DNA of 64,000 nucleotides. It comes from Pimelobacter simplex. GTDB lineage: Bacteria > Actinomycetota > Actinomycetes > Propionibacteriales > Nocardioidaceae. Positions 8,136 to 47,840 of this stretch are shown here, in pieces. Both the position numbers and the translations under genes were made by a program. The notes below the pieces were generated by a model. It did no database searches. It was not told where the DNA came from and worked only from the letters and a program-made list of their open reading frames with translations. The first letter of the stretch is position 1. Each line of letters starts with the position of its first letter. The stretch lies in contig NZ_CP096276.1 of assembly GCF_024662235.1 (NCBI RefSeq), forward strand, positions 1,860,001 through 1,924,000. The letters run 5' to 3'.

Positions 8136-9742
8136 ACCAGCACCCCGGGGTTGAGGACGCCGGCCGGGTCGAGCGCGGTCTTGGCCGCGCGCAGCGCCTG
8201 GGCGAAGGGCTCGGGGCGCTGGGCGTCGTACCAGGGGCGGTGGTCGCGGCCGACCGCGTGGTGGTGGGTGATGGTGCCGCCGTGGGCGATGATCGCGTCG
8301 GAGACGGCGGCCTTGATCTCGTCCCACTGGGCCAGGGTGCTGCCCCAGCGGCCGCCCGCGTAGACGCCGTAGTAGGGCGCCGGGCCGTCGGGGTAGACGT
8401 GGGTGAACCGGCACGTGACGACGCCCTGGCCGCCGCAGACCCGGGCGATCGCGTCGGTGGCCGCGGCGGTGACGGCCGCGTGGAGGTCCGGGAACGCCGC
8501 CCAGGTGCACGCGGTCTCGAAGGTCTCCACGACCATCGCGCGGCGGGCGAGGGCGTCGCGCTGGTAGGGCATCCGGATGAACGCCGAGCGCCACGCCTGG
8601 GACGCGTCGCCGGCCTCGGTGGTCGCGCCGTGGTCGCCGGCGTCCGTGGCCCGGTCCCGGGTGGCGAGGACGGTGCCGCCGTGGTCGGCGACCAGCTCGA
8701 GGGCCCGGCCGAGCCAGGCGTCGACCGGGTGGTCCGCGGACTCGAAGGCGAGGATGAGCAGGCCGCCGTCGACCGCGGTCCCGGCGTTGATGAGGGCCTC
8801 GGCCGGGTCGAGGAGGCGGCAGTTGGCCGGGTGCAGGCTGGACTGGGCGATCGCGCGGGTGGCGGCGACCGCGGCGTCGTACGAGGTGAAGGCGACGGTG
8901 GCGGTGCGCTGCCAGGTGGGGCGCAGCTGGAGGCGCATCCACGCCTCGGTGATCACGCCGAGCGCCCCCTCGGAGCCGAGGAACATCCGGTCCGGCGAGG
9001 GGCCCGCGCCGGAGCCGGGCAGGCGGCGCGACTCGCTGGTGCCCGCGGGGGTGACCACGCGCAGCGACGCGGTGAGGTCGTCGATGTGGGTGGCGAGCGT
9101 GGCGAAGTGGCCGCCGGCCCGGGTCGCGAGCCAGCCCCCGAGCGTGGAGAACTCGAAGGACTGGGGGAAGTGGCGCAGGGTCAGCCCGTGCGGGCGCAGC
9201 TGGGCCTCGAGCGCGGGGCCGTAGGTGCCGGCCTGGATCCGTGCCGCGCGGCTGGTGGTGTCGATCTCGACGACCTGGTCGAGGTGCTCCAGGTCGAGGC
9301 TGACGGCCGGGCCCTCGAAGCGGGGCTCGACGCCGCCGACGACCGAGCTGCCGCCGCCGTAGGGGACGACGGGGGTGGCCGTCGAGGTGCACCAGTCGAG
9401 CACGTCGACGACGTCCTGCTCGGTGCGCGGGCGGACGACGAGGTCGGGCACCGGGCCGCGGACGCCGGTGAGGTTGCGGACCACGTCGCGGAAGGCCTTG
9501 CCGCGGGCGTGCCCGAGCCGGTCGACGGGATCGGCCGAGCAGAGCGCGGTGAGTGCCGCGGGCGGCGTGACCCGGGGCGCCGGTACGGCGAACGCGGCCG
9601 GGTCCGGCGGGGCGTGGTCGGTGAGGTCGTGGCCGGGCAGCAGCGCCGCCACGCGCCCGGCGAGCGTGTCGGCCTCGGCGGCCGTGAGCTGTCGGCCCTC
9701 GGTGCCCCAGCCCCACCAGGAGCGTCGGTCGGGAACGGTCAT
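8132..9742 (-). CDS. FAD-binding oxidase, alkyldihydroxyacetonephosphate-synthase-like
   Basis: A 536-residue flavoprotein of the VAO/PCMH superfamily. The FAD-binding part has VVPYGGGSSVVGG and the segment FEFSTLGGWLATRAGG; the C-terminus has the His-rich HHHAVGRDH that matches the HHHGVG motif of alkyl-DHAP synthase, the enzyme that makes the ether bond in ether lipids. A D-lactate-dehydrogenase-like oxidase is the alternative. The ATG at 9742 overlaps the TetR stop (ATGA), giving the order regulator, enzyme, unknown protein. Ether lipids are not standard in this group, so another aryl or alkyl substrate is quite possible. Confidence 0.82.
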   Translation of the reverse strand: MTVPDRRSWWGWGTEGRQLTAAEADTLAGRVAALLPGHDLTDHAPPDPAAFAVPAPRVTPPAALTALCSADPVDRLGHARGKAFRDVVRNLTGVRGPVPDLVVRPRTEQDVVDVLDWCTSTATPVVPYGGGSSVVGGVEPRFEGPAVSLDLEHLDQVVEIDTTSRAARIQAGTYGPALEAQLRPHGLTLRHFPQSFEFSTLGGWLATRAGGHFATLATHIDDLTASLRVVTPAGTSESRRLPGSGAGPSPDRMFLGSEGALGVITEAWMRLQLRPTWQRTATVAFTSYDAAVAATRAIAQSSLHPANCRLLDPAEALINAGTAVDGGLLILAFESADHPVDAWLGRALELVADHGGTVLATRDRATDAGDHGATTEAGDASQAWRSAFIRMPYQRDALARRAMVVETFETACTWAAFPDLHAAVTAAATDAIARVCGGQGVVTCRFTHVYPDGPAPYYGVYAGGRWGSTLAQWDEIKAAVSDAIIAHGGTITHHHAVGRDHRPWYDAQRPEPFAQALRAAKTALDPAGVLNPGVLV

Positions 9743-10362
9743 CGGTGGGTCTCCTGCTCGTCGAGCGCCGGGGTGCGGGACAGGGCGAGGAGCGCGCGGC
9801 GTCCGCGCTCGGTCATCTCGGCGGCGGAGCGGTCGGGGTGGCGCAGCCACCAGCCGACGAGCGCCGAGACGCTGCCCATCCAGATGTCGGTGAGGATCTC
9901 GAGGTCGTCGGCGTCGGCGACCGCGTCGAGCGCGGCGAGGGTCCCGACGCCCGAGCGGGCCTGCTCGGCGATCCGGACCCGCGCGGTCCGCGCCGCCCGG
10001 TGCGCGGCGGAGCCGGCCGGCGTGGTCCGGTCATTGAGGACGTTCCAGTCGTGGGGCCGGGGCGCGAGCGCGGTGAAGATGGCCGCGAGCGTGCCCTCGG
10101 CCAGGGTGAGCGGCGGCCCGCCCGCGGCGAGGACGGCGTCGATCCGGTCGGCGATCGAGGCGCCGGCCCGGTCGGCGCAGGCGGCGAAGAGGGCGTCCTT
10201 GGAGCCGAAGTAGCCGAGGACGAGCTGCTTGGAGACGCCGGCGCCTGCCGCGATCGCGGACAGCGAGGCGCCCGCATGGCCGTAGCGGCCGAACTCGGCC
10301 GTCGCGGCGTCGAGGATGAGCTCCTCGCGCTGGGCGCGCGGAACGCGCTTGCTGCCGGGCAT
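9739..10362 (-). CDS. TetR family transcriptional regulator
   Basis: A 207-residue TetR-type repressor. The DNA-binding helices (ASLSAIAAGAGVSKQLVLGYFGSK) are near residues 31-55; the C-terminal ligand domain is unclassified. It is the first gene of the operon with the AGPS-like oxidase and the unknown protein, and a perfect 31-bp inverted repeat lies just upstream, so it probably represses its own operon. A GGAGG ribosome-binding site precedes the ATG. Confidence 0.9.
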   Translation of the reverse strand: MPGSKRVPRAQREELILDAATAEFGRYGHAGASLSAIAAGAGVSKQLVLGYFGSKDALFAACADRAGASIADRIDAVLAAGGPPLTLAEGTLAAIFTALAPRPHDWNVLNDRTTPAGSAAHRAARTARVRIAEQARSGVGTLAALDAVADADDLEILTDIWMGSVSALVGWWLRHPDRSAAEMTERGRRALLALSRTPALDEQETHR

Positions 10363-10890: not shown

Positions 10891-11457
10891 GTGGCTGGTG
10901 CGCAGGGGCGTCTGCAGGACCGGAGGGCGACGGCGCTGGCGGCGGCGATCGACCTGCTGGCCGGCGGGGGAGCGCGCGCACTGACCCACCGGGCGGTGGA
11001 CGAGCGGGCGGGGCTGGCGCCGGGCTCGACGTCGAACTACTTCCGGACCCGGGCGAGCCTCATCGCCGGCGTGGTCCAGCGGCTCCTCGACGAGGACCTG
11101 GCCCTGCTGGCCGGGCTCGGTCCGCTGCCGGCGGAGCGGGACGTCGCGCCCTTCCTGGTCGGCTACGTCGAGCTGAGCCGCACCCGGCGGTGGACGGCGG
11201 CGTTGGCCCGGCTGGCACTGCTCGCCGATCCCGACGCGGGCGAGCTCGCGGCCGGCCGGAGCCGGTTGCTCGAGGCCGCCACGAGCGCGCTGGCCGGGCT
11301 CGGGCTCGCCGATCCCCGCGCGACGGCCGGCGTCCTGGTCGACCTCGTCGACGGCGCGATCGCCGGCGCCGTCGCCTACGGCAACCCGACCTCGGCGGCC
11401 GCCCTCGGCCGCGCGATCGACGCCATCGTGACCGCCGCCTCCGAGGAGCCGACATGA
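10891..11457 (+). CDS. TetR family transcriptional regulator
   Basis: A 188-residue TetR-type regulator starting at GTG 10891. The HTH is near residues 28-52 (RALTHRAVDERAGLAPGSTSNYFRTR). The GTG is 6 nt after a TACAGT -10, so the mRNA is probably leaderless. The stop overlaps the next start (ATGA), so it is cotranscribed with the DUF3995-like membrane protein and is the likely regulator of that gene. Confidence 0.85.
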   Translation: MAGAQGRLQDRRATALAAAIDLLAGGGARALTHRAVDERAGLAPGSTSNYFRTRASLIAGVVQRLLDEDLALLAGLGPLPAERDVAPFLVGYVELSRTRRWTAALARLALLADPDAGELAAGRSRLLEAATSALAGLGLADPRATAGVLVDLVDGAIAGAVAYGNPTSAAALGRAIDAIVTAASEEPT

Positions 11458-12825: not shown

Positions 12826-14691
<1,866 letters not shown>

Positions 14692-19229: not shown

Positions 19230-20147
19230 CTAGCCGCCGGACGTCAGGTGCGCGGCGAGCCAGGCGTCGATCTCGGCCGTCGCCGCCGCGGCCAGGGGCG
19301 TCGGGTGCACGGTGAACCCGTGGGGCGCCTCGGGATAGACGCTCAGCGCGACGTCGACCCCGGCCGAAGCGAGCCGTCCGGCCATCGCCAGGTTGTCCTC
19401 GAGCAGGACGTCCTCCGCCCCGACGACGAGCAGCACCGGAGGCAGCCCGGTCAGGTCGGCATAGACGGGGGAGAGGTCGGGGTGGGTCCGGTCGGCGGCC
19501 GCGCCGGCATAGGCGTCGAGGAAGTACTCGTCCGCGATCCGGCGTCCGGCCGGGGTCTGCCCGCTGAGGTCGAAGGTGCCGAACTGCAGCACCGCCGTAC
19601 GAAAGGGTGCGAGCCCGCGCTCGCGCATCCGGAGCAGGGTGGCCGCGGCCAGCGTCGAGCCCGCGGAGAAGCCGAGCAGTGCCAGCTCGGTGGTCCCGAA
19701 GCGGTCCGCGGCGTGCTCGGCGAGCCAGAGCGCGACGCTCGCGCAGTCGTCCGGAGCGGCCGGCCAGGGGTGCTCGGGGGCGAGGCGGTAGTCCACGCTC
19801 ACCACCACGACACCGAGTGCGTCGGCGAGCCGTCGGTTGCGGACGTCGCTCGCCGCGGCCGAGCCCAGGTAGAAGCCGCCGCCGTGCAGCTCGAGCACCA
19901 CACCCGCGGGCGGTACGCCGGCCGGCAGGTGGATCCGCACGGGCACGGTGTGGCCGTCAGCACCGACGAGCTCGGTGAGCGGAGGCGGGTCCGCCGGGAC
20001 GGGCACGGGCACCGCGGCGCGGAGGGCGTCGAGCTCGGCCGGGCCGGACGGACCGCGGCCCGGCACCCGGCCGTCGTAGAAGGCGCGGGACTGCTCCGCG
20101 AGCGGGAGCAACCGGGGGTCGACCAGGTGGGCGAGCCCGAGCCTCAC
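19230..20147 (-). CDS. Alpha/beta hydrolase, hormone-sensitive-lipase (HSL) family esterase
   Basis: A 305-residue esterase/lipase starting at GTG 20147, which overlaps the TetR stop (GTGA). It has the oxyanion motif HGGGF, the nucleophile elbow GFSAGS, an Asp near GAEDVLLED and the catalytic His in PHGF. These define the HSL (IV) family, acting on short- to medium-chain esters. No signal peptide. It forms an operon with, and is probably controlled by, the TetR gene upstream. Confidence 0.9.
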   Translation of the reverse strand: MRLGLAHLVDPRLLPLAEQSRAFYDGRVPGRGPSGPAELDALRAAVPVPVPADPPPLTELVGADGHTVPVRIHLPAGVPPAGVVLELHGGGFYLGSAAASDVRNRRLADALGVVVVSVDYRLAPEHPWPAAPDDCASVALWLAEHAADRFGTTELALLGFSAGSTLAAATLLRMRERGLAPFRTAVLQFGTFDLSGQTPAGRRIADEYFLDAYAGAAADRTHPDLSPVYADLTGLPPVLLVVGAEDVLLEDNLAMAGRLASAGVDVALSVYPEAPHGFTVHPTPLAAAATAEIDAWLAAHLTSGG

Positions 20148-20767
20148 CGGGCCTCCTCGGTGAGGAGGGCGGCCACCACGTGGGGGATGACGGTGTCGAT
20201 CGCGTGGCGCACGGTGCCGTCGGTGTCTCCGGTCAGCAGCGCTCGTCGTACGGCGTCGTTGTAGATGCCGATGATCGTGTCGGCCAGCTCGGCGACCGGC
20301 AGCGACGCGGACGCGCCGGCCGCGGCCAGCACCTCGGTCGCGACCTCCTCGACGGCGGCGCGCATCGCGCGGTCGAGGTCGGCGATGGCCGCGCGCACGT
20401 GGGGCTGGTCGAGGCTGTGCACCTCGAACTCGGTGGTGAGCCGGAACCACGCGGGATCGAGCCGGAAGGTCGCCGCGACCGCACGGGCGAGGTGCTGGGT
20501 GAGCACGACCGGGTCGGGTGCGCGCTCCGGCGCGCCGAGGACGCCGGCGACGGCCTCGCGCAGCCGGCGTACCTGCTCGTCGGACTCGATCCGGTAGAGC
20601 TCGAGGAAGAGCTCCTCCTTGCTCGCATGGTTGGAGTAGAACGCCCCGCGGGTGAACCCGGCGCGAGCGCAGATGGCGCTGACGCTGGCGCCCCGGATGC
20701 CGTGCTCGGCGAACACCTCGCGGGCCGCCGCGACCAGGCGCTGCTGGGTGTCGGCACGGCTGCGCAT
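20144..20767 (-). CDS. TetR family transcriptional regulator
   Basis: A 207-residue TetR-type regulator; HTH ASVSAICARAGFTRGAFYSNHASKEEL near residues 27-53. A TAGACT -10 (20775-20780) lies 7 nt upstream of the ATG, so the transcript is likely leaderless. The gene is divergent from the metallophosphoesterase and a GATACA/TGTATC inverted repeat lies between them. It is the first gene of the operon with the HSL esterase. Confidence 0.88.
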   Translation of the reverse strand: MRSRADTQQRLVAAAREVFAEHGIRGASVSAICARAGFTRGAFYSNHASKEELFLELYRIESDEQVRRLREAVAGVLGAPERAPDPVVLTQHLARAVAATFRLDPAWFRLTTEFEVHSLDQPHVRAAIADLDRAMRAAVEEVATEVLAAAGASASLPVAELADTIIGIYNDAVRRALLTGDTDGTVRHAIDTVIPHVVAALLTEEAR

Positions 20768-26612: not shown

Positions 26613-26630
26613 ACCGAGCGATCGCTCGGT
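26613..26630. promoter_or_regulatory. 18-bp perfect palindrome, TetR-type operator of the monooxygenase/ABC/ligase cluster
   Basis: ACCGAGCGATCGCTCGGT is fully palindromic and lies 43 bp upstream of the monooxygenase start. Sites of this CCGAnCG type are common for TetR regulators of acyl and aromatic catabolism. No free-standing TetR gene exists in the cluster, but the ligase at 31748 ends in a TetR domain. Confidence 0.7.
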
Positions 26631-26672: not shown

Positions 26673-28442
26673 GTGAGGGTTGACACCGACTCGTCACCTG
26701 ACGAGGTGAAGGCGGCCTTCCAGGCTTGGCTCACGGACTTCGCGGAGGCGATGGAGACGGCGGACACCGCCGCGGCCACGGCACTGCTCGATGCAGGCTG
26801 CTGGTGGCGCGACCTCCTCGCGCTCAGCTGGGACCTCGGGACGTACCACGGCACCGACAAGATCGCCGGGCTGCTCGACGAGCACCTCGCGGCGGCGAAG
26901 GTGACCGGGGTGCGGCTGGTGAGCGACTTCGGTCCGCGCTTCGTCGCCGAGGAGGGCGGCGGGGGCTCGATCGAGGGCTTCTTCGCGTTCGAGACGGCGG
27001 GTGCCTGGTGCCGTGGGGTGGCGCGCATCCGGCAGAACGACGGCGGGTGGCGCGCCTGGACCGTGATGACGGGTGCCGAGGACGTCAAGGGCCACGAGCG
27101 GGCGCTGGGCGGACGGCGTCCGACCGGGCCGCGGCACGAGGTCGGCGCGACGACGCAGCGCAACTGGAAGGACAAGCGCGAGGACGCGCTGGCCTACGCC
27201 GACCGGGAGCCCGACGTGGTGATCCTGGGTGCGGGTCAGGGTGGGCTCGCCCTGGCGGCCAACCTGCGGCTGATGGGCGTCGACGCCCTGATCCTGGAGA
27301 AGAGCGAGCGGATCGGCGACGGCTGGCGACGGCGCTACCACTCGCTGGTGCTGCACGACCCGGTCTGGGCCGACCACCTGCCCTACCTGCCGTTCCCGCA
27401 GTCGTGGCCGATCTACTCCCCCAAGGACAAGATCGCCGACTGGTTCGAGTTCTACGCCCAGGCGATGGAGCTCAACGTGTGGTGCTCGGCCGAGATGACC
27501 GACGCCGTGTACGACGACCAGGCCGGCGCCTGGACCCTGTCGGTCCGGACCAAGGACGGCGAGCGCACCCTGCGTCCGCGCAACGTGGTGCTGGCGACCG
27601 GTGCGGCCGGCGAGCCCAACATCCCCGACTTCCCGGGGCGCGACGGCTTCGCGGGCACGGTCTACCACTCCAGCAAGCACGGTGCCGGCGGCAGCTGGGC
27701 CGGCAAGAAGGCGATCGTCGTCGGTGCCTGCAACAGCGGTCACGACATCGCCCAGGACCTGCACGAGGCGGGTGCGGACGTGACGCTGGTGCAGCGCTCG
27801 TCGACCCACATCATCAGCCAGAAGAACGGCATCCCGGCGATCTTCGGGGCCAACTTCACCGAGTCCGGTCCGCCCACCGAGTACGCCGACCTGCTGGCGA
27901 GCGCCTATCCCTGGCCGCTCGTGCTCCAGGACGCCAAGGAGGGCGTCAAGCGCACCGCCGAGCTCGACAAGGACCTGCTCGCCTCGCTCGAGGCGGTCGG
28001 TTTCCAGCTCAACGACGGCCCCGACGGCACCGGCCTCATGGGCTTCGCGCTGGCCAAGGGCGGCGGCTACTACATCGACGTCGGTGCGTCCGGCCTCATC
28101 GCCGAGGGCAAGATCGGGCTCGCCCAGGGCGCCGGCCTCGCGGAGTTCACGCCGCACGGGATCCGGCTCGACGACGGGCGTGAGCTCGACGCCGACCTGG
28201 TCGTCCTGGCGACGGGCTACTCCAACATGCGCGAGACCGCGCGGCGTCTCTTCGGCGACGGCGTCGCCGACAAGCTCCCCACCGTGCTGGGCATCGGTGA
28301 GGACGGAGAGATCGGCGGGCTCTACCGCCGTACCGGCCAGCCGGGGTTCTGGTTCATGGGCGGCCCGCTGGCGTGGGTCCGCGTCTACTCCAAGCACCTC
28401 GCGCTCCAGATCACCGCCGACCTGCACGACGTACGCCCCTGA
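26673..28442 (+). CDS. Flavin-containing monooxygenase with N-terminal NTF2-like domain
   Basis: A 589-residue two-domain protein. Residues about 1-135 are an NTF2/SnoaL-like cone domain (AFQAWLTDFAEAMETADTAA). Residues about 170-589 are an NAD(P)H- and FAD-dependent monooxygenase of the FMO/Baeyer-Villiger/YUCCA type: FAD motif GAGQGG, NADPH motif GACNSG, and the FMO linker FPGRDGFAGTVYHSS. It would oxygenate a ketone or heteroatom with O2. Start GTG 26673 follows an AAGGAGG ribosome-binding site. First gene of a cluster with an ABC importer, a fused CoA ligase and an SDR. Confidence 0.9.
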   Translation: MRVDTDSSPDEVKAAFQAWLTDFAEAMETADTAAATALLDAGCWWRDLLALSWDLGTYHGTDKIAGLLDEHLAAAKVTGVRLVSDFGPRFVAEEGGGGSIEGFFAFETAGAWCRGVARIRQNDGGWRAWTVMTGAEDVKGHERALGGRRPTGPRHEVGATTQRNWKDKREDALAYADREPDVVILGAGQGGLALAANLRLMGVDALILEKSERIGDGWRRRYHSLVLHDPVWADHLPYLPFPQSWPIYSPKDKIADWFEFYAQAMELNVWCSAEMTDAVYDDQAGAWTLSVRTKDGERTLRPRNVVLATGAAGEPNIPDFPGRDGFAGTVYHSSKHGAGGSWAGKKAIVVGACNSGHDIAQDLHEAGADVTLVQRSSTHIISQKNGIPAIFGANFTESGPPTEYADLLASAYPWPLVLQDAKEGVKRTAELDKDLLASLEAVGFQLNDGPDGTGLMGFALAKGGGYYIDVGASGLIAEGKIGLAQGAGLAEFTPHGIRLDDGRELDADLVVLATGYSNMRETARRLFGDGVADKLPTVLGIGEDGEIGGLYRRTGQPGFWFMGGPLAWVRVYSKHLALQITADLHDVRP

Positions 28443-28511: not shown

Positions 28512-29657
28512 ATGCAAGGCAGTAGAAAGGCCCGGGCCAAGTTCGGTCTGGTCGCGATCGTGGCGGGGCTCAGCCTGGTGACGGCGGCCTGCGCCGACGA
28601 CGGCGGCTCCGGGGGCGACTCGTCGTCGGGCAAGAAGCTCGTCTACTTCATGGCGCCCAACACGACGCCGACCCGCTACATCCAGCAGGACGGACCGGAC
28701 TTCGAGAAGGCCATCAAGGCGCTCGACCCCGACGTCGAGGTGAAGTTCGTCAACGGTGGCGGCGACTCCGCGACCCAGCTGTCGCAGGCGAACGCCGCCA
28801 TCGCGGCCGGCGCCAAGGCGCTCGTCGTCGTCGCGGCCGACCCCAACACCAGCGCGGGTCTGCTCCAGGCCGCCGCGACGGCGAAGGTCCCGGTGATCGG
28901 CTACGAGAACCCGCCGCTCAACGGCCCGCTCTACGCCCAGGTGATCTTCGACCCCTACAAGGTCGGCATCCAGCAGGCGGAGTACTTCAAGAGCCAGGTC
29001 GAGGCCGGCGCGTTCGGCAGCGGCTCGGTCGACCTCGCCCGCCAGTACGGCAACAAGGGCGACGTCTACACGACCGAGATGCTCAAGGGTCAGGACGAGG
29101 TGCTCAAGCCCCTCATCGACGACGGCACGCTCAACGTGGTCTGCGAGGACTACATCAAGGACTGGGCGCCCGACAACGCCCAGAAGGCGGCCGAGCAGTG
29201 CCTGACCAAGACCCAGGGCAAGATCGACGCGTTCCTCGGGTTCTACGACGGCAACGCGTCCGGCATCATCGCCGCGCTCAAGGGCAAGAACGCCGACATC
29301 CCCGTCTACGGCGGGCAGAACCCCGAGCTGACCGGTCTGCAGTACCTGCTGACCGGTGACCAGCAGGACACCGTCCTCAAGGCGTTCTCGGTCGAGGCCG
29401 AGGCCGCGGCGAAGATCGCGCTGGCCGCGATGAAGGGCGAGGACCCGCCGTCCGACCTGGTCAAGGACGAGGTCAACAACGGGACCGACGACATCCCGAC
29501 CGCCAAGCTCGACACCACGCTGATCCACCTCGAGGACGGCAAGGACCCGGGCGAGATCGTCCAGCAGGCCGTCGACCTCGGCATCTTCACGTGGGAGCAG
29601 ATCTGCGACGGCGGTCCCGCCGCGAGCACGCCCACCTGCAAGGCGAAGGTCGGCTGA
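28512..29657 (+). CDS. ABC transporter substrate-binding lipoprotein, CUT2 (ribose/xylose) class
   Basis: A 381-residue periplasmic-binding-protein type 1 lipoprotein. The lipobox LVTAAC places the lipid-anchored Cys at residue 27. The mature part resembles sugar-binding proteins of the XylF/RbsB type (KALVVVAADPNTSAGLLQAA, VPVIGYENPP, FYDGNASGIIAALKG). It captures the substrate outside the membrane. Context argues that the ligand may not be a sugar. A GAAGGAGA ribosome-binding site precedes ATG; a strong hairpin follows the gene. Confidence 0.9.
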   Translation: MQGSRKARAKFGLVAIVAGLSLVTAACADDGGSGGDSSSGKKLVYFMAPNTTPTRYIQQDGPDFEKAIKALDPDVEVKFVNGGGDSATQLSQANAAIAAGAKALVVVAADPNTSAGLLQAAATAKVPVIGYENPPLNGPLYAQVIFDPYKVGIQQAEYFKSQVEAGAFGSGSVDLARQYGNKGDVYTTEMLKGQDEVLKPLIDDGTLNVVCEDYIKDWAPDNAQKAAEQCLTKTQGKIDAFLGFYDGNASGIIAALKGKNADIPVYGGQNPELTGLQYLLTGDQQDTVLKAFSVEAEAAAKIALAAMKGEDPPSDLVKDEVNNGTDDIPTAKLDTTLIHLEDGKDPGEIVQQAVDLGIFTWEQICDGGPAASTPTCKAKVG

Positions 29658-29757: not shown

Positions 29758-30537
29758 ATGCCTGACGCCGGTGAGCTGCTGCTGCAGCTGAGCCAGGTCT
29801 CGAAGTACTTCGGTGGCGTGCGTGCGCTCCACGAGGTCGACCTCGAGCTCCACCGCGGTGAGGTCGTCGCCCTCGTGGGCGACAACGGAGCCGGAAAGTC
29901 CACGCTCATCAAGGTCATCTCGGGCGTCGAGCACCCCGACGCGGGTGCGATCCGGGTGCGCGGCGAGTCCGTGCGCCTCGACACCCCGCGCGCCGCGCAG
30001 AGCGCCGGGATCCACACGGTCCACCAGGACCTGGCCCTGTGCGACAACCTCGACGCGGTCCGCAACCTGTTCCTCGGCCAGGAGCTCACCGGAGGACTCC
30101 TGCGCGGCCGGCCGCTGAGCCGGCACCGCATGGAGGTCGAGGCCCGCAAGGTGCTCGACAGCCTCGCCGTACGCCTCCGCTCGCTCACCGCGCCGGTCGG
30201 CGGGCTCTCTGGCGGCCAGCGCCAGGGCATCGCCATCTGCCGCGCCCTCATCTCCGACCCCAGCCTCGTGCTGCTGGACGAGCCGACCGCGGCCCTGGGC
30301 GTGACCCAGCGCGCCGAGGTGCTCGACCTGATCCTGCGCCTGAAGTCCCAGAACCGCGGCGTGCTCGTGATCTCCCACGACCTCAAGGACGTCCAGGAGG
30401 TCGCCGACCGCGTCGTCGTCATGCGCCTGGGCAGCAAGGTCGCCGAGTTCGGCCGCGGCGACTACACCTCCAGCGACCTGATCGCCGCAATCACCGGGGC
30501 CCACGAGGCTCCTCGAACCCGTGAGGGCAGCCGATGA
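29758..30537 (+). CDS. ABC transporter ATP-binding protein, CUT2 class
   Basis: A 259-residue ATPase with a single nucleotide-binding domain: Walker A GDNGAGKST near residue 42, Q-loop HQDLAL, signature LSGGQ, Walker B LVLLDEPTAAL and switch His in ISHDLKD. Many sugar CUT2 ATPases have two fused domains; this one has one, as in FrcA-type systems, so it probably works as a homodimer. ATG 29758 is preceded by AGGGAGGA. Overlaps the permease by 4 nt. Confidence 0.92.
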   Translation: MPDAGELLLQLSQVSKYFGGVRALHEVDLELHRGEVVALVGDNGAGKSTLIKVISGVEHPDAGAIRVRGESVRLDTPRAAQSAGIHTVHQDLALCDNLDAVRNLFLGQELTGGLLRGRPLSRHRMEVEARKVLDSLAVRLRSLTAPVGGLSGGQRQGIAICRALISDPSLVLLDEPTAALGVTQRAEVLDLILRLKSQNRGVLVISHDLKDVQEVADRVVVMRLGSKVAEFGRGDYTSSDLIAAITGAHEAPRTREGSR

Positions 30538-31751
30538 CCACGCAGCAGATCCCGCTCCCGCCGACCACGGCCGCGCCCGGCGAGGTGGACACTCCCCTGC
30601 TCTCGCGCCTGGTCGAGGGACTCAGCGGCAAGTACCGCAGCATCCCCGTGCTGCTGGTGCTCGGCCTGATCTGGACCTACTTCTACTCGCAGAACTCGGC
30701 GTTCCTGACGTCCGGCAACATCACCACGCTGACGCTGCAGATCGTCACGACGGCGATCCTCGCGCTCGGCGTGGTGTTCGTCCTCCTCGTCGGCGAGATC
30801 GACCTGTCGTCGGCCATGCTGTCCGGCGTCTGCGCGACGGTGACCGCGCAGCTCGCGATCAAGAGCGAGTGGCCGCTGTGGCTGGCGATCCTCGGCGGGG
30901 TGGCCGTCGGGCTGCTGTTCGTCCTGGCCGAGGTGCTCGCCGTGATCTTCGGGGTGCCGTCCCTGATCGTCACCCTCGGCGGCATGGTCATCCTCCAGGG
31001 CCTCCTGCTCGTCGTGCTGCCGCCCGAGTTCACGATCAACGTGGCCGGCACCGACTACGCCAAGATCTCCTCCACCTACATCCCGTCCGGCTGGAGCATC
31101 GCGCTCGGAGCCGTGGGCTGGCTGCTCTTCTGCGCCACCCGCTACCGCGCCCAGCGCGAGCGCGGAGCCGAGGCGACGTCCTCCCTGCTCGTCGCGGTCG
31201 GTGTGCCCGCCGTGGTCAGCGGCGTCGTGATCTTCGGCGCGATCGCCGTGCTCGGCGGCGGCCCCGGACTCCCCCTGCCGGTGCTGATCCTGGTCGGCAT
31301 GCTGCTCCTGGCGGCGTACGCCACGGGCCGGACCCGCTACGGGACGCACCTGTACGCCGTCGGTGGCAACCGCGAGGCCGCGCAGCGCGCCGGCATCCCG
31401 GTCTCCCGTATGGTCGTCTACTCCTTCCTCGTCCTCGGCGTGTGCGCCGCGGTGGCCGGCATGGTGGAGGCCTCGCGCCTGCTCGCCGTGTCGAACTCCT
31501 CCGGCGGCGGCCCCCTGATGCTCAACGCGATCGCCGCGGCGGTGGTCGGCGGGGTCAGCCTGTTCGGCGGCCGCGGGACCGTGTGGGCCGCGCTCCTGGG
31601 CGCGCTCGTCATCGGGTCGATCAACAACGGCGTCCAGCTGCTCGGCATGTCCACCGAAGTCCAGAGCTTCGCGACCGGCGGTGTCCTTATCCTTGCTGTT
31701 GCGATCGACGTCGTGATCACCCGTGGGTCACTGCTGCCGAACCGCCGATGA
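30534..31751 (+). CDS. ABC transporter permease, CUT2 (XylH/RbsC) class
   Basis: A 405-residue inner-membrane permease with about ten helices. It shows the family loops GEIDLSSAMLSGV and YAVGGNREAAQRAGIPV, the latter being the coupling-helix EAA-like region of branched sugar permeases, and the GRGTVWAALLGALVIGSINNG segment. It forms the channel with the ATPase and lipoprotein encoded just upstream. Its stop overlaps an ATG (31748) of the ligase-TetR gene, so the whole set is probably one transcript. Confidence 0.92.
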   Translation: MTTQQIPLPPTTAAPGEVDTPLLSRLVEGLSGKYRSIPVLLVLGLIWTYFYSQNSAFLTSGNITTLTLQIVTTAILALGVVFVLLVGEIDLSSAMLSGVCATVTAQLAIKSEWPLWLAILGGVAVGLLFVLAEVLAVIFGVPSLIVTLGGMVILQGLLLVVLPPEFTINVAGTDYAKISSTYIPSGWSIALGAVGWLLFCATRYRAQRERGAEATSSLLVAVGVPAVVSGVVIFGAIAVLGGGPGLPLPVLILVGMLLLAAYATGRTRYGTHLYAVGGNREAAQRAGIPVSRMVVYSFLVLGVCAAVAGMVEASRLLAVSNSSGGGPLMLNAIAAAVVGGVSLFGGRGTVWAALLGALVIGSINNGVQLLGMSTEVQSFATGGVLILAVAIDVVITRGSLLPNRR

Positions 31752-34399
31752 GCAGCGAACGAGCAGATGTGGCAATCGAAAGGGGATGTGCGGACGTGAC
31801 TGTCGAGGCAGCGTGGCTGCCCACAGACGACCAGATCGACAGCTCTCGGGTGGTGGACTTCGCTCGCTGGCTCGGCAAGGAGGGCGTCGTCACGCTCGCC
31901 GACCCGCGGGACTTCCGTGAGCTGCAGGCCTGGTCCGCCGCCGAACCCGCGCGGTTCTGGGAGTCGGTCGCCCGCTACTTCGGCGTCGACTTCGCGACCG
32001 AGGCGACGGAGGTGCTCTCGTCCCACGAGATGCCGGGGGCCCGCTGGTTCCACGGCGCGACGCTGAACTTCGCCCGGGAGATGCTCAAGCACGGCGCCGC
32101 GGAGCGCGAGGCGATCGTCCTCGTCCGCGACGACGGGCACCGCGAGTCGATCACCTTCGGCCAGCTGCGCGACCAGGTCGCCGCCGTCGCCGGGGCCCTC
32201 GCCGATCGCGGCATCGGCCAGGGCGACCGGATCGTGGCCTACCTGCCCAACTGCATCGAGGGCGTGGTCGCCTTCCTCGCCTCCGCGACGCTGGGCGCGG
32301 TCTGGTCCCAGACCGGCATGGACTACGCCCCCGCTGCGGCGATGGACCGCCTCGGCCAGCTCGACCCGACCGTCTTCATCGCCGGCACGGGCTACCTGTT
32401 CAAGGGCGAGAAGCAGGACCGGCGCGAGGCCGTGGCCGAGCTCCGCGTGCTGCTGCCCGTCGACGCGCTGGTCGTCTCGATCGAGACCGGCGGCGTCTAC
32501 CGCGACGACACGACGCCGTGCGACGTCACCTGGGAGCAGCTCCAGCGGTTCAGCAAGCCGGTGGCGACGCCGGTCGACGTACCGTTCGACCACCCGCTCT
32601 GGGTGCTCTTCACGTCCGGCACCACCGGGCGCCCCAAGGGCATCGTGCACGGGCACGGCGGCGCGTTGCTGGAGCAGCTCGTCTCCCCCGGCTTCCACAT
32701 GGGGGTCGACGAGGCCGACGTCTTCTTCTGGTTCACCACCCCCAACTGGATGATGTGGAACGCCCAGATCTGCGGGCTCCTGCACGGCGCGACCATCGTG
32801 CTGTTCGACGGCAGCCCGACCCACCCCGACACCGGTCTGCTCTGGCGGGTCGTGCAGGACCTCGGGGTCACGGTGTTCGGCACCAGCCCCGGCTACCTCC
32901 AGGCCAGCGCGCGCGACGGGCTGGAGCCCGGCCGCGACCTCGACCTGTCCGCGCTCGAGCTGATCGGCGTCACCGGCTCGGTGCTGCCGGCCAGCAGCAA
33001 CCACTGGGTCCGCGACCACGTGCGGGCCGACCTCCAGGTCGGCTCGATGAGCGGTGGCACCGACATCGTCGGCATCTTCGTGGCCAGCGCCCCCAACCTC
33101 CCCGTGTACGACGGCGAGATCAGCGGGACCGCTCTCGGCGTCGCGCTGGAGGTGTGGGACGAGAAGGGCAACCGGCTCCCCGACGGCGAGACCGGCGAGA
33201 TGGTGATCACCCAGCCGATGCCGTCGATGCCGATCGCGTTCTGGGACGACCCCGAGGGCGAGCGCTACCGCGACGCGTACTTCGACGTCTTCCCCGGCGT
33301 GTGGCGCCACGGTGACTCGATCACGATCTCCGAGCGCGGCACGATCATGATCCACGGCCGTACCGACTCCACCCTCAACCGCAACGGCGTCCGCCTCGGC
33401 AGCGCCGAGATCTACGAGGCGCTGGACTCGCTGCCCGAGATCAGCGACAGCCTCGTCGTGGGCGTCGAGCTCGCCGAGGGCGGCTACTGGATGCCGTTGT
33501 TCGTCGTCGCCGAGGGCGTCGCCGACGACTCCGGGCTGCGCTCGCGCATCGTCGAGACGATCGCCGGGCGTACCTCCCGCCGGCACGTCCCCGACGAGAT
33601 CATCGTCGCCCCCGCACTCCCCCGGACGCGCACCGGCAAGCGGCTGGAGGTGCCGGTCAAGCGCATCCTCCAGGGGACCTCCCCGCGCCGGGTCACCAGC
33701 ACGGGCGCGGTCGACGACGTCGACGCGCTGCAGTGGCTCATCGACTTCGCGCGCAAGCGCAACGGCGACTCGGCCGCGGCGACGACGGTGCTGCCGACGG
33801 ACACCTACGAGGACTGGCGGATCTACCACGAGCAGGACCTGCCGCGGGTGCTCGCCGCCGCGCTCGACGTGTTCACCGAGAAGGGCTACCACGGCACGAC
33901 GACCCGCCAGCTCGCCGATCGCTCGGGCCTCTCGGTGCCCGGGATCTACCACCACTACAAGTCGAAGCAGGACATCCTCTTCGACCTCATGATGGTGATC
34001 GTCGACGAGCTCGTCGAGCGCAGCCGGTTCGCGGTCGCCCAGGCCGAGTCCGACCCGCGCTCGCAGTTCGACGCCCTGGTGTCGAGCATGCTCCTGTTCC
34101 ACGTCTACCGCCGCAAGGGCGCGATCGTGTCCACCAGCGAGCTGCGCAGCCTGGAGCCCGGCAACCGGCGCAAGTACGTCGACCGCCGCGACGAGCTGCA
34201 GGCGCTGCTGGACCAGATCATCGAGCGCGGCGTCACCGACGGGGTCTTCCACACCCCCTACCCCGGCGACGCCGGGCGGGCGATCGCGTCGATGTGCGCA
34301 GGCGTCGCGACCTGGTACCGGCCCGAGGCGCCGCTGAGCTTCGACCCGCTGCTCGACCGCTACCTGTCGATCGCCGAGTCGATCGTCGGCGTGCGCTGA
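31748..34399 (+). CDS. Acetoacetyl-CoA-synthetase-like ligase fused to a C-terminal TetR regulator
   Basis: An 883-residue fusion in one continuous frame. Residues about 20-665 are an acyl-adenylate ligase of the acetoacetate-CoA ligase type: AMP motif FTSGTTGRPKG near residue 290, GSMSGGTD, and catalytic Lys in RTRTGKRLE near 630. Residues about 690-883 are a full TetR protein, with HTH TTTRQLADRSGLSVPGIYHH and then KSKQDI, plus a helical ligand domain. No stop, repeat or frame change separates them. ATG 31748 overlaps the permease stop; GTG 31796, ten nt after AAAGGGG and closer to the usual family start, is an equally good start. It should make a CoA thioester and also bind DNA, probably the palindrome at 26613. 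Confidence 0.88.
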   Translation: MSSERADVAIERGCADVTVEAAWLPTDDQIDSSRVVDFARWLGKEGVVTLADPRDFRELQAWSAAEPARFWESVARYFGVDFATEATEVLSSHEMPGARWFHGATLNFAREMLKHGAAEREAIVLVRDDGHRESITFGQLRDQVAAVAGALADRGIGQGDRIVAYLPNCIEGVVAFLASATLGAVWSQTGMDYAPAAAMDRLGQLDPTVFIAGTGYLFKGEKQDRREAVAELRVLLPVDALVVSIETGGVYRDDTTPCDVTWEQLQRFSKPVATPVDVPFDHPLWVLFTSGTTGRPKGIVHGHGGALLEQLVSPGFHMGVDEADVFFWFTTPNWMMWNAQICGLLHGATIVLFDGSPTHPDTGLLWRVVQDLGVTVFGTSPGYLQASARDGLEPGRDLDLSALELIGVTGSVLPASSNHWVRDHVRADLQVGSMSGGTDIVGIFVASAPNLPVYDGEISGTALGVALEVWDEKGNRLPDGETGEMVITQPMPSMPIAFWDDPEGERYRDAYFDVFPGVWRHGDSITISERGTIMIHGRTDSTLNRNGVRLGSAEIYEALDSLPEISDSLVVGVELAEGGYWMPLFVVAEGVADDSGLRSRIVETIAGRTSRRHVPDEIIVAPALPRTRTGKRLEVPVKRILQGTSPRRVTSTGAVDDVDALQWLIDFARKRNGDSAAATTVLPTDTYEDWRIYHEQDLPRVLAAALDVFTEKGYHGTTTRQLADRSGLSVPGIYHHYKSKQDILFDLMMVIVDELVERSRFAVAQAESDPRSQFDALVSSMLLFHVYRRKGAIVSTSELRSLEPGNRRKYVDRRDELQALLDQIIERGVTDGVFHTPYPGDAGRAIASMCAGVATWYRPEAPLSFDPLLDRYLSIAESIVGVR

Positions 34400-34442: not shown

Positions 34443-35276
34443 ATGGGACGTGTCGACCAGAAGGTCGCGCTCATCACCGGTGCCGGACGGGGCCAGGGGC
34501 GCGCGCACGCCGTACGACTGGCGGAGGAGGGTGCCTCGGTCATCGCGTTCGACATCTGCGCCCCGGTCGCCTCGGTGAGCTACGACATGGCGACCGCGGC
34601 GGACCTCGAGGAGACGTGCGCCCTGGTCCGGGCGGCCGGAGGGCAGGTGTACTCGGCCCAGGTCGACGTCCGCGACCTCGACGTCCTGGAGCGCGAGCTC
34701 GCGGCCGGCGTCGCGGCGCTGGGTGGGCTCGACATCGTCGTCGCCAACGCCGGCATCGCCAGCTATGCGGCCGGGCACGAGATCTCCGAGGCCGCCTGGC
34801 AGGAGATGATCGACATCAACCTCACCGGGACGTGGCACACGATCAAGGCCGCCGTGCCGCACCTCGTGGCGGGTGGCCGCGGTGGCTCGATCGTGCTGAC
34901 CAGCTCGGCGGCCGGACTGCAGGGCACCCCGAACCTCGCGCACTACGTCGCCGCGAAGCACGGTGTCACCGGTCTGATGCGGACGTTCGCCAACGAGCTG
35001 GCGCCGCACTGGATCCGCGTCAACAGCGTGAACCCGACCCAGGTGGACACGCCGATGATCATGAACGACGAGATCTTCCGCATGTTCCGCCCCGACCTGG
35101 ACGCCCCGGGCCGCGACGACATCGTCGATGTCTCGATCTCCACCAACGCCCTGCCCGTGCCGTGGGTCGAGGCGAGCGACGTGGCCAACGCGGTGCTGTT
35201 CCTGGCCTCGGACGAGGCCCGCTACATCACCGGGGTGGCCCTGCCCGTCGACGCGGGGATCCTCGCCAAGGTCTAG
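34443..35276 (+). CDS. Mycofactocin-coupled SDR family oxidoreductase
   Basis: A 277-residue SDR whose N-terminus, TGAGRGQGRAHAVRLAEEG followed by a DIC segment, is the signature of the mycofactocin-dependent group (TIGR03971-like). These enzymes hold NAD tightly and pass electrons to mycofactocin rather than to free NAD. Catalytic Ser (LTSSA) and YVAAK are present. It would oxidise an alcohol to a ketone or aldehyde. An AAGGAGGAA ribosome-binding site precedes ATG 34443; last gene of the cluster. Mycofactocin synthesis genes should exist elsewhere in the genome. Confidence 0.88.
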   Translation: MGRVDQKVALITGAGRGQGRAHAVRLAEEGASVIAFDICAPVASVSYDMATAADLEETCALVRAAGGQVYSAQVDVRDLDVLERELAAGVAALGGLDIVVANAGIASYAAGHEISEAAWQEMIDINLTGTWHTIKAAVPHLVAGGRGGSIVLTSSAAGLQGTPNLAHYVAAKHGVTGLMRTFANELAPHWIRVNSVNPTQVDTPMIMNDEIFRMFRPDLDAPGRDDIVDVSISTNALPVPWVEASDVANAVLFLASDEARYITGVALPVDAGILAKV

Positions 35277-47249: not shown

Positions 47250-47840
47250 TCAGCGCACCCGCAGGCCGTCGACGACCGCGGTGACGAGCCCCTCGACCCA
47301 GGCGTCGTCCACGGCGTCGTGCCCGCGCAGGACCATCGCGACCAGCGTGGCACCGAAGACCATCTCGACGAACACACCCAGGTCGATGTCGGGTCGCGCC
47401 TCGCCGCGCTCCGACGCCTCGGCCAGCCGGCCGGCCAGGGACTCCCAGCCGGAGGCCAGCAGCCGGGCGCTCAGCTCCTGCTCGAGCGCGTGGTCGGCCA
47501 TCATCTCGCTCATCAGCGCCGGGGTCGCGCGCCGGCCCGCGGGCGAGCCGACGATCGCCAGGCAGCGCTCGACGACCGCGCGGACCTCCGAGCGCAGGTC
47601 GGCGGCCCCGGTCGGGGCGCCGACGGCGTCGGTGGGATAGACCGCCTCGTGCACGAGGTGGGCCTTGGAGGCCCAGCGCCGGCGGATGGCGGGCACCGAC
47701 GTCCCGGCCCGCTGGGCGATCGCGCGGAAGGTCAGGTCGGCGTACCCGAGCTCGGCGACGAGCTCGCGCGTGGCGACGAGCACGGCCTCGTCGATCCGGC
47801 TGTCGCGTGGACGGCCGGCGACGGCTGCTGCCTCGCTCAT
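47250..47840 (-). CDS. TetR family transcriptional regulator
   Basis: A 196-residue TetR-type regulator with HTH LTFRAIAQRAGTSVPAIRRRWASK near residues 36-60 and a TetR_C_11-like helical C-terminus. A strong GAGGAGGT ribosome-binding site precedes ATG 47840. Divergent from the acyl-CoA ligase operon at 47939, across 98 bp with an imperfect inverted repeat, so probably its repressor. Confidence 0.87.
   Translation of the reverse strand: MSEAAAVAGRPRDSRIDEAVLVATRELVAELGYADLTFRAIAQRAGTSVPAIRRRWASKAHLVHEAVYPTDAVGAPTGAADLRSEVRAVVERCLAIVGSPAGRRATPALMSEMMADHALEQELSARLLASGWESLAGRLAEASERGEARPDIDLGVFVEMVFGATLVAMVLRGHDAVDDAWVEGLVTAVVDGLRVR

Follow-up and report, generated by a model that had tools for sequence, protein, structure and literature searches.

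The 64,000-nucleotide stretch of the Pimelobacter simplex genome analysed here (contig NZ_CP096276.1, positions 1,860,001 to 1,924,000; below, the window) contains a gene at 31748..34399 that joins a coenzyme A (CoA) ligase resembling acetoacetyl-CoA synthetase (AACS) to a complete transcriptional regulator of the TetR family. Judged by its sequence and that of its relatives, this is a real and conserved enzyme-repressor fusion, and it gives the trigger-enzyme idea a form not previously described in the literature searched. The fused frame is intact and conserved, as are the operon around it and an 18-base palindrome in front of the operon. Our preferred reading, to which we assign a probability of about two in three, is that the bifunctional protein represses its own operon at this palindrome and that the acyl-CoA formed by the ligase half, or a nearby intermediate, lifts the repression.

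Translation of the window revealed 883 open codons across 31748-34399 of the forward strand without a stop. Pfam matches above cut-off were obtained for ACAS_N (residues 57-109), AMP-binding (119-490) and AMP-binding_C (557-631), followed by TetR_N (PF00440, 702-745, E 2.3e-15) and TetR_C_24 (PF17932, 768-876, E 1.4e-23). Residues 20-671 exceeded the cut-offs of both NCBIfam models for acetoacetate-CoA ligases, TIGR01217 with 682.6 bits (cut-off 520.9) and NF002937 with 797.2 (cut-off 639). The solved enzyme of S. lividans, 4wd1, aligned with its residues 8-657 of 658, and as this alignment ended at residue 671 of the fused protein, the TetR part starts directly after a complete ligase. By these matches the polypeptide is composed of two complete proteins joined via a short linker, which bears out the description in an earlier note on this DNA of one open frame with a ligase, then a complete TetR protein, and no stop between them. 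AlphaFold predicted nine helices from residue 700 to 880; with the helix-turn-helix (HTH) of TetR_N and an all-helical effector domain, the second half is by domains and model a member of the TetR family. The true start of the gene may be GTG 31796, the start in four of the five closest relatives (P0002, P0004-P0006) and the one picked by the gene caller.

The fusion recurs in other organisms. The TetR part alone, scored against proteins of fitting length, retrieved 23 clusters of 864-894 amino acids, every one with both domain sets. When the alignment of 24 fused proteins served as query, 7862 of the 8000 proteins scored reached E <= 1e-100, and the 120 matches listed comprised 27 fused clusters, the window's own protein not counted, and 93 ligases without TetR_N. 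Internal stops were absent from all eight fused genes read as DNA, the window gene included. A scan of a collection with one genome per species gave 302 proteins related to the TetR part, the best 80 of which are the named loci (L061-L140); as it required exact short peptides, it may miss members. Seven of these 80 were fused (L061-L065 in Nocardioides and Pimelobacter, L070 and L072 in Aeromicrobium), five had a ligase gene immediately before the TetR gene in the same orientation (L066-L069, L071), and eight had a 48-50% identical ligase about 2 kb upstream (L079, L091, L098, L100, L105, L113, L125, L132), a distance that leaves space for another gene between ligase and TetR relative; the remaining 60 had no ligase above thresholds within the stretch examined around the TetR relative. 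Among the matches listed for 198 family genomes, four presented the fusion (100, 89, 60 and 59% identity) and one, G061, the two halves as adjoining genes. The search for the combined domain architecture, suggested by the earlier note, thus found fused relatives and established the fusion as real and conserved; homologues are not always split, the finding which that note had named as adverse, since fused and split forms both exist. Fused proteins are already present in public databases, the named ones as acetoacetate--CoA ligase or acetoacetyl-CoA synthetase. Another unusual fusion in the same ligase family was P0117, a 921-residue AACS-like protein with a PF03328 domain, which we take to be the HpcH/HpaI aldolase domain.

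The catalytic Lys 631 and the SVPGIYHHY of the recognition helix were invariant in all 24 aligned fused proteins; among the seven named fused loci, L063 and L072 deviate from the latter by one residue each. In all five pairs of the substitution table, which covered five of the seven relatives and left out the Aeromicrobium pairs, the synonymous rate (dS) exceeded the nonsynonymous rate (dN) in both halves, with a dN of 0.02-0.05 against a dS of 0.31-0.46 in the HTH, while the linker had the fastest replacement rate of the four parts. Both halves are, on these rates, kept under purifying selection. The rarity of the fusion, present in the above 4 of 198 genomes among the matches listed, is the sole argument for regarding the TetR part as a relic carried along by the enzyme, or the fusion as an assembly error. 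Its occurrence in many other clusters and named genomes means that it is not a sequencing error, and its presence in independent assemblies rules out an assembly artefact or frameshift; as the recognition helix is invariant, selection is purifying and the palindrome accompanies the protein, this explanation is hardly credible.

The exact 18-mer of the candidate operator (Table 1) occurs as a single copy in the 6.26-Mb genome. It was found at the same place before the monooxygenase gene in all nine L061-L072 loci that contain this start, with AT or AG as the central two bases; the contigs of L063, L067 and L071 stop short of it and have no part in the count. The exact pattern with any two central bases was present in 14 of the 198 family genomes: five had a fused or split pair, with the pattern before the monooxygenase gene in each, five had it next to the gene of a TetR protein that shares 40-51% identity with the TetR part, and four had neither within the 3 kb examined. 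A degenerate form, CCGARCGNNYGNTCGG, was detected in 41 of 46 gaps between a TetR relative and an acyl-CoA dehydrogenase gene, i.e., in those of the 80 named loci with a dehydrogenase gene at most 400 bases after the TetR gene, versus 0 of 9,200 shuffled gaps; it was missing in L067 (one mismatch), L069, L129, L130 and L137. Outside these gaps it occurred 27 times in 1.56 Mb, on reading nine times in monooxygenase promoters, ten times before a more distant dehydrogenase, six times before a TetR gene and twice elsewhere. A chance palindrome is excluded by the single genome copy, the contrast with the shuffled gaps and the distribution in family genomes. This joint occurrence of protein clade and DNA site is the strongest evidence for binding of the TetR half at the palindrome. 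The operator role that the earlier note had given to the palindrome is likely, and this co-occurrence makes it very probable that the operon is controlled by the TetR part encoded in it.

Further observations concern the site itself. A second copy of the palindrome was located between separate TetR and dehydrogenase genes at L066:8697-8714 and, with one mismatch, at L067:6577-6592, so that in these loci a single regulator may govern two transcription units. The loci L073-L140 (Rhodococcus, Gordonia, Williamsia, Amycolatopsis and others) represent a TetR clade in which CCGARCGNNYGNTCGG or a near-form precedes the gene of an ACAD11-like dehydrogenase, with an APH kinase gene next in line. Just upstream of the palindrome most printed loci have a GTGTG..ACACT-like stretch that looks like part of a promoter. 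Several versions of the operator sequence gave no find in the literature searched.

Table 1. Features of the ligase-TetR operon in the window
Feature	Position	Strand	Remarks
Candidate operator, perfect 18-base palindrome ACCGAGCGATCGCTCGGT	26613..26630	.	42 bases before likely GTG start of first operon gene
First operon gene, FAD/NAD(P) monooxygenase-like (FMO-like / Pyr_redox_3)	26673..28442	+	589 aa; 67-90% identical orthologues at same place
Substrate-binding protein, sugar-type (xylose/ChvE-like)	28512..29657	+	Peripla_BP_4; xylF and ChvE models match below cut-off
ABC transporter ATPase, RbsA-like	29758..30537	+	one ABC domain
ABC transporter permease, BPD_transp_2, GguB-like	30534..31751	+	stop overlaps ATG 31748 of fused gene
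Fused gene, AACS-like CoA ligase and TetR protein	31748..34399	+	883 aa; 867 aa if start is GTG 31796
Ligase part	31808..33760	+	residues 21-671, catalytic Lys at residue 631; 4wd1 alignment
Linker	33764..33814	+	residues 673-689; 17 residues separate ligase and TetR parts
TetR_N DNA-binding domain	33851..33982	+	residues 702-745; Pfam
TetR_C_24 effector domain	34049..34375	+	residues 768-876; Pfam; helices in predicted model
Mycofactocin-coupled short-chain dehydrogenase	34443..35276	+	TIGR03971 above cut-off; kept downstream in L061-L065

In the proposed mechanism, one polypeptide would comprise an AMP-forming acyl-CoA ligase of the AACS-like subfamily, a short flexible linker and a TetR repressor. 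As a dimer the TetR part would occupy the palindrome before the first operon gene and block the whole monooxygenase - ABC transporter - ligase/repressor operon, including its own gene. The transported compound would become a carboxylic acid, the ligase half would turn this acid into an acyl-CoA, and the acyl-CoA or a nearby pathway intermediate would enter the TetR_C_24 pocket and cause derepression. Binding as a dimer, a repressing and not an activating role, and release through a small molecule are presumed by analogy with TetR biology; that the effector is the product of the ligase is plausible and is put forward with less confidence. The trigger-enzyme proposal of the earlier note thus stands as regards a conserved enzyme-repressor fusion with a likely operator, and is plausible only as regards the enzyme's own substrate or product as effector.

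Several observations weigh against the preferred reading. The AlphaFold model is of moderate confidence (predicted local distance difference test, pLDDT, 74.3; predicted template modelling score, pTM, 0.60) and does not fix the relative placement of the two halves, and confidence is low at residues 728-738, the recognition helix itself. The CoA contacts of the TetR_C_24 regulator KstR2, which we take to be R162, W166 and R170, align by eye to A, A and T in the TetR part, hence a KstR2-like grip on CoA is not supported and was discarded as a candidate. In favour of the reading, TetR proteins that respond to acyl-CoA esters are known, KstR2 to HIP-CoA (PMC7807495) and Fad35R to palmitoyl-CoA (PMC4418694). 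On both strands of the own genome, CCGARCGNNYGNTCGG gave 15 hits at 13 places versus 10 for the control, which is near background, so that a wider regulon in this genome is not supported; only 26613-26630 among the 13 places is the full 18-mer, and the exact 18-mer alone stands out. With two mismatches the pattern yielded 499 hits per strand versus 371 for the control, mostly noise. Five loci manage with unfused ligase-TetR pairs, thus the fusion is not needed for regulation. Three of the eight fused genes examined at the DNA level (those of the window, L062 and L065) contain a weak candidate for an internal start, namely a GTG at residue 701 preceded by AGGA.

The unfused pairs bear on a serious alternative that we consider quite possible, namely that the fusion only fixes equal amounts and co-location of two proteins, the effector being the transported or an upstream compound and catalysis and DNA binding proceeding independently. 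Split pairs whose operon and palindrome are the same as those of the fused gene agree with it, as do the lacking KstR2-like contacts and a linker with the highest replacement rate in all five pairs and low model confidence (pLDDT below 50 at residues 674-697, and low also in several ligase stretches). Against it, the same site lies between the genes of TetR relatives and adjoining genes of acyl-CoA enzymes; such an arrangement speaks rather for an effector that is linked to CoA and close to the step of the ligase. The internal start candidate belongs to another explanation, two products of one gene: the full-length fusion and a shorter TetR protein, so that the regulator would be mostly a free dimer. 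A second GTG, at residue 681 and without Shine-Dalgarno sequence, occurs in the window gene, L061, L062 and L064. As the AGGA-GTG is limited to three of eight genes and starting there would cut into the first TetR helix, and as L063 and the two Aeromicrobium fused genes have neither GTG, we regard two products as improbable. The statement of the earlier note that no ribosome-binding site separates the halves holds mostly, with the exception of this weak AGGA-GTG.

The preferred reading could be extended to a self-sensing enzyme: either the acyl-CoA from the ligase half is captured by the TetR half of the same dimer, or the rotation of the ligase domain alters the affinity for the operator. Between the two half-reactions of an AMP-forming CoA ligase, the C-terminal domain undergoes a rotation of about 140 degrees (PMC4053389). 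With the TetR part attached after this rotating domain, a mechanical coupling is, by analogy, conceivable. We see the self-sensing enzyme as a tentative and rather unlikely extension; if true, catalytic turnover on a single molecule, and not the bulk metabolite pool, would switch the operon.

The acyl pocket of the ligase half contains the stretches PNWMMWNA, GTDIVGIF and YDGE, in 4wd1 TGWMMWNF, GTDVCSCF and HIGE. With small changes the altered set was common to 13 fused rows, five split rows and the unfused L019, and it was absent from the other 12 unfused family paralogues and eight nearby ligases compared; 18 of the 24 P rows were left aside in this comparison. Because of this difference from the solved acetoacetate ligase, plain acetoacetate is doubtful as substrate. 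In relatives the operon includes a dehydrogenase with ACAD11 as best match among solved proteins, and an APH kinase for which the best of five matches was 3dxp, filed as a putative acyl-CoA dehydrogenase, with the kinase part of ACAD11 third and fourth (E 2e-44). The two activities of ACAD11 convert 4-hydroxyacyl-CoA to 2-enoyl-CoA, and their counterparts in bacteria are LvaA and LvaC, encoded in the levulinate operon (PMC12440821). These ACAD11-like neighbours suggest by analogy, as a best guess, that the pathway acid is a 4-keto or 4-hydroxy acid.

The evolution of the fusion was approached with two trees. The TetR tree grouped the 31 fused rows weakly (49/67). In the joint tree of 40 rows the fused rows were not grouped, nor did any of 200 bootstrap trees group them; a constraint holding them together was not rejected on this tree (approximately unbiased test, p 0.119). 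The joint tree speaks for two fusions or for a subsequent split. A single fusion event is hinted at by the Tyr in the linker (P-T/S-x-x-Y-like), which is present in all 24 aligned fused proteins and by eye missing from the five split TetR starts.

The order of monooxygenase-like, substrate-binding, ATPase, permease and ligase genes was identical in the window, L068, L064, L070 and L072 (the same places as L046, L048, L049 and L050) and in the other L061-L072 loci as far as the contigs extend. Five loci share this operon with separate ligase and TetR genes, which indicates that the halves belong together. In the split loci L068, L069 and L071 the start codon of the TetR gene and the stop of the ligase gene share a four-base overlap, in L066 and L067 a gap separates the genes. 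Dehydrogenase and APH-type kinase genes follow the TetR gene in L066, L067 and L069, and a kinase gene only in L068 and L071. After the fused gene of L061-L065 a short-chain dehydrogenase gene is located, as in the window, where it is probably the last operon gene in this lineage. The window operon was without an ACAD11-like dehydrogenase or kinase gene; their nearest homologues are 37-41% identical and lie elsewhere. About 180 N-terminal residues of the monooxygenase had no Pfam match and resemble by eye a SnoaL/NTF2-like domain. Five more TetR_N genes were present in the window (9739-10362, 10891-11457, 12826-13395, 20144-20767 and 47250-47840), and the whole genome had at least 116 TetR_N matches.

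Both TetR proteins and CoA ligases form large families in bacteria, and if the preferred reading is true, trigger enzymes extend to the TetR family. A natural fusion with a conserved palindrome and split relatives offers a test bed for an enzyme that makes its own inducer in cis, and the fused protein is a possible natural template for biosensors. Behind a database name of just acetoacetate--CoA ligase, a regulator can be concealed. From the site, target genes are predicted for the TetR clade in Rhodococcus, Gordonia, Williamsia and Nocardioides, of which no study was found in the literature searched.

Among known systems, AacS of S. lividans (4wd1) is similar to the ligase half over about 650 residues, but its acyl-pocket stretches differ and only the fused protein carries a TetR part at the C-terminus. 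Fad35 is presumably a CoA ligase. The TetR regulator Fad35R binds the Fad35 promoter, as given in the available part of PMC4418694, yet unlike in the fusion the proteins are separate; likewise, the qsd operon combines a TetR regulator with a CoA-ligase operon as two proteins (PMC6262395, available part). Operons of the relatives, with an ACAD11-like dehydrogenase and an APH kinase, resemble the lva operon and the ACAD10-ACAD11 pathway, whereas the window operon has neither gene. Text searches of the portions at hand did not encounter acetoacetyl-CoA or acetoacetate in a Nocardioides simplex transcriptome paper (PMC7807495), nor the words fused and multidomain in a 2026 study of TetR ligand-binding domains (PMC13176608). 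Literature searches of open-licence papers found no paper describing the fusion or a trigger enzyme with a TetR protein, in agreement with the earlier note, to which no described protein with this order was known. Nor do we know of a trigger enzyme in which a TetR protein is combined with an acyl-CoA ligase. KstR2 and 3vpr, TetR_C_24 regulators with the same two Pfam domains, are among the solved sequences nearest to the TetR part, but have no enzyme at the N-terminus, and the presumed CoA contacts of KstR2 are absent from the fused protein. The trigger enzymes PutA, BirA and NadR have their enzyme and DNA-binding parts on a single polypeptide. Going by its architecture, the fused protein shares this arrangement, with its own operon as the likely target of a regulation we infer.

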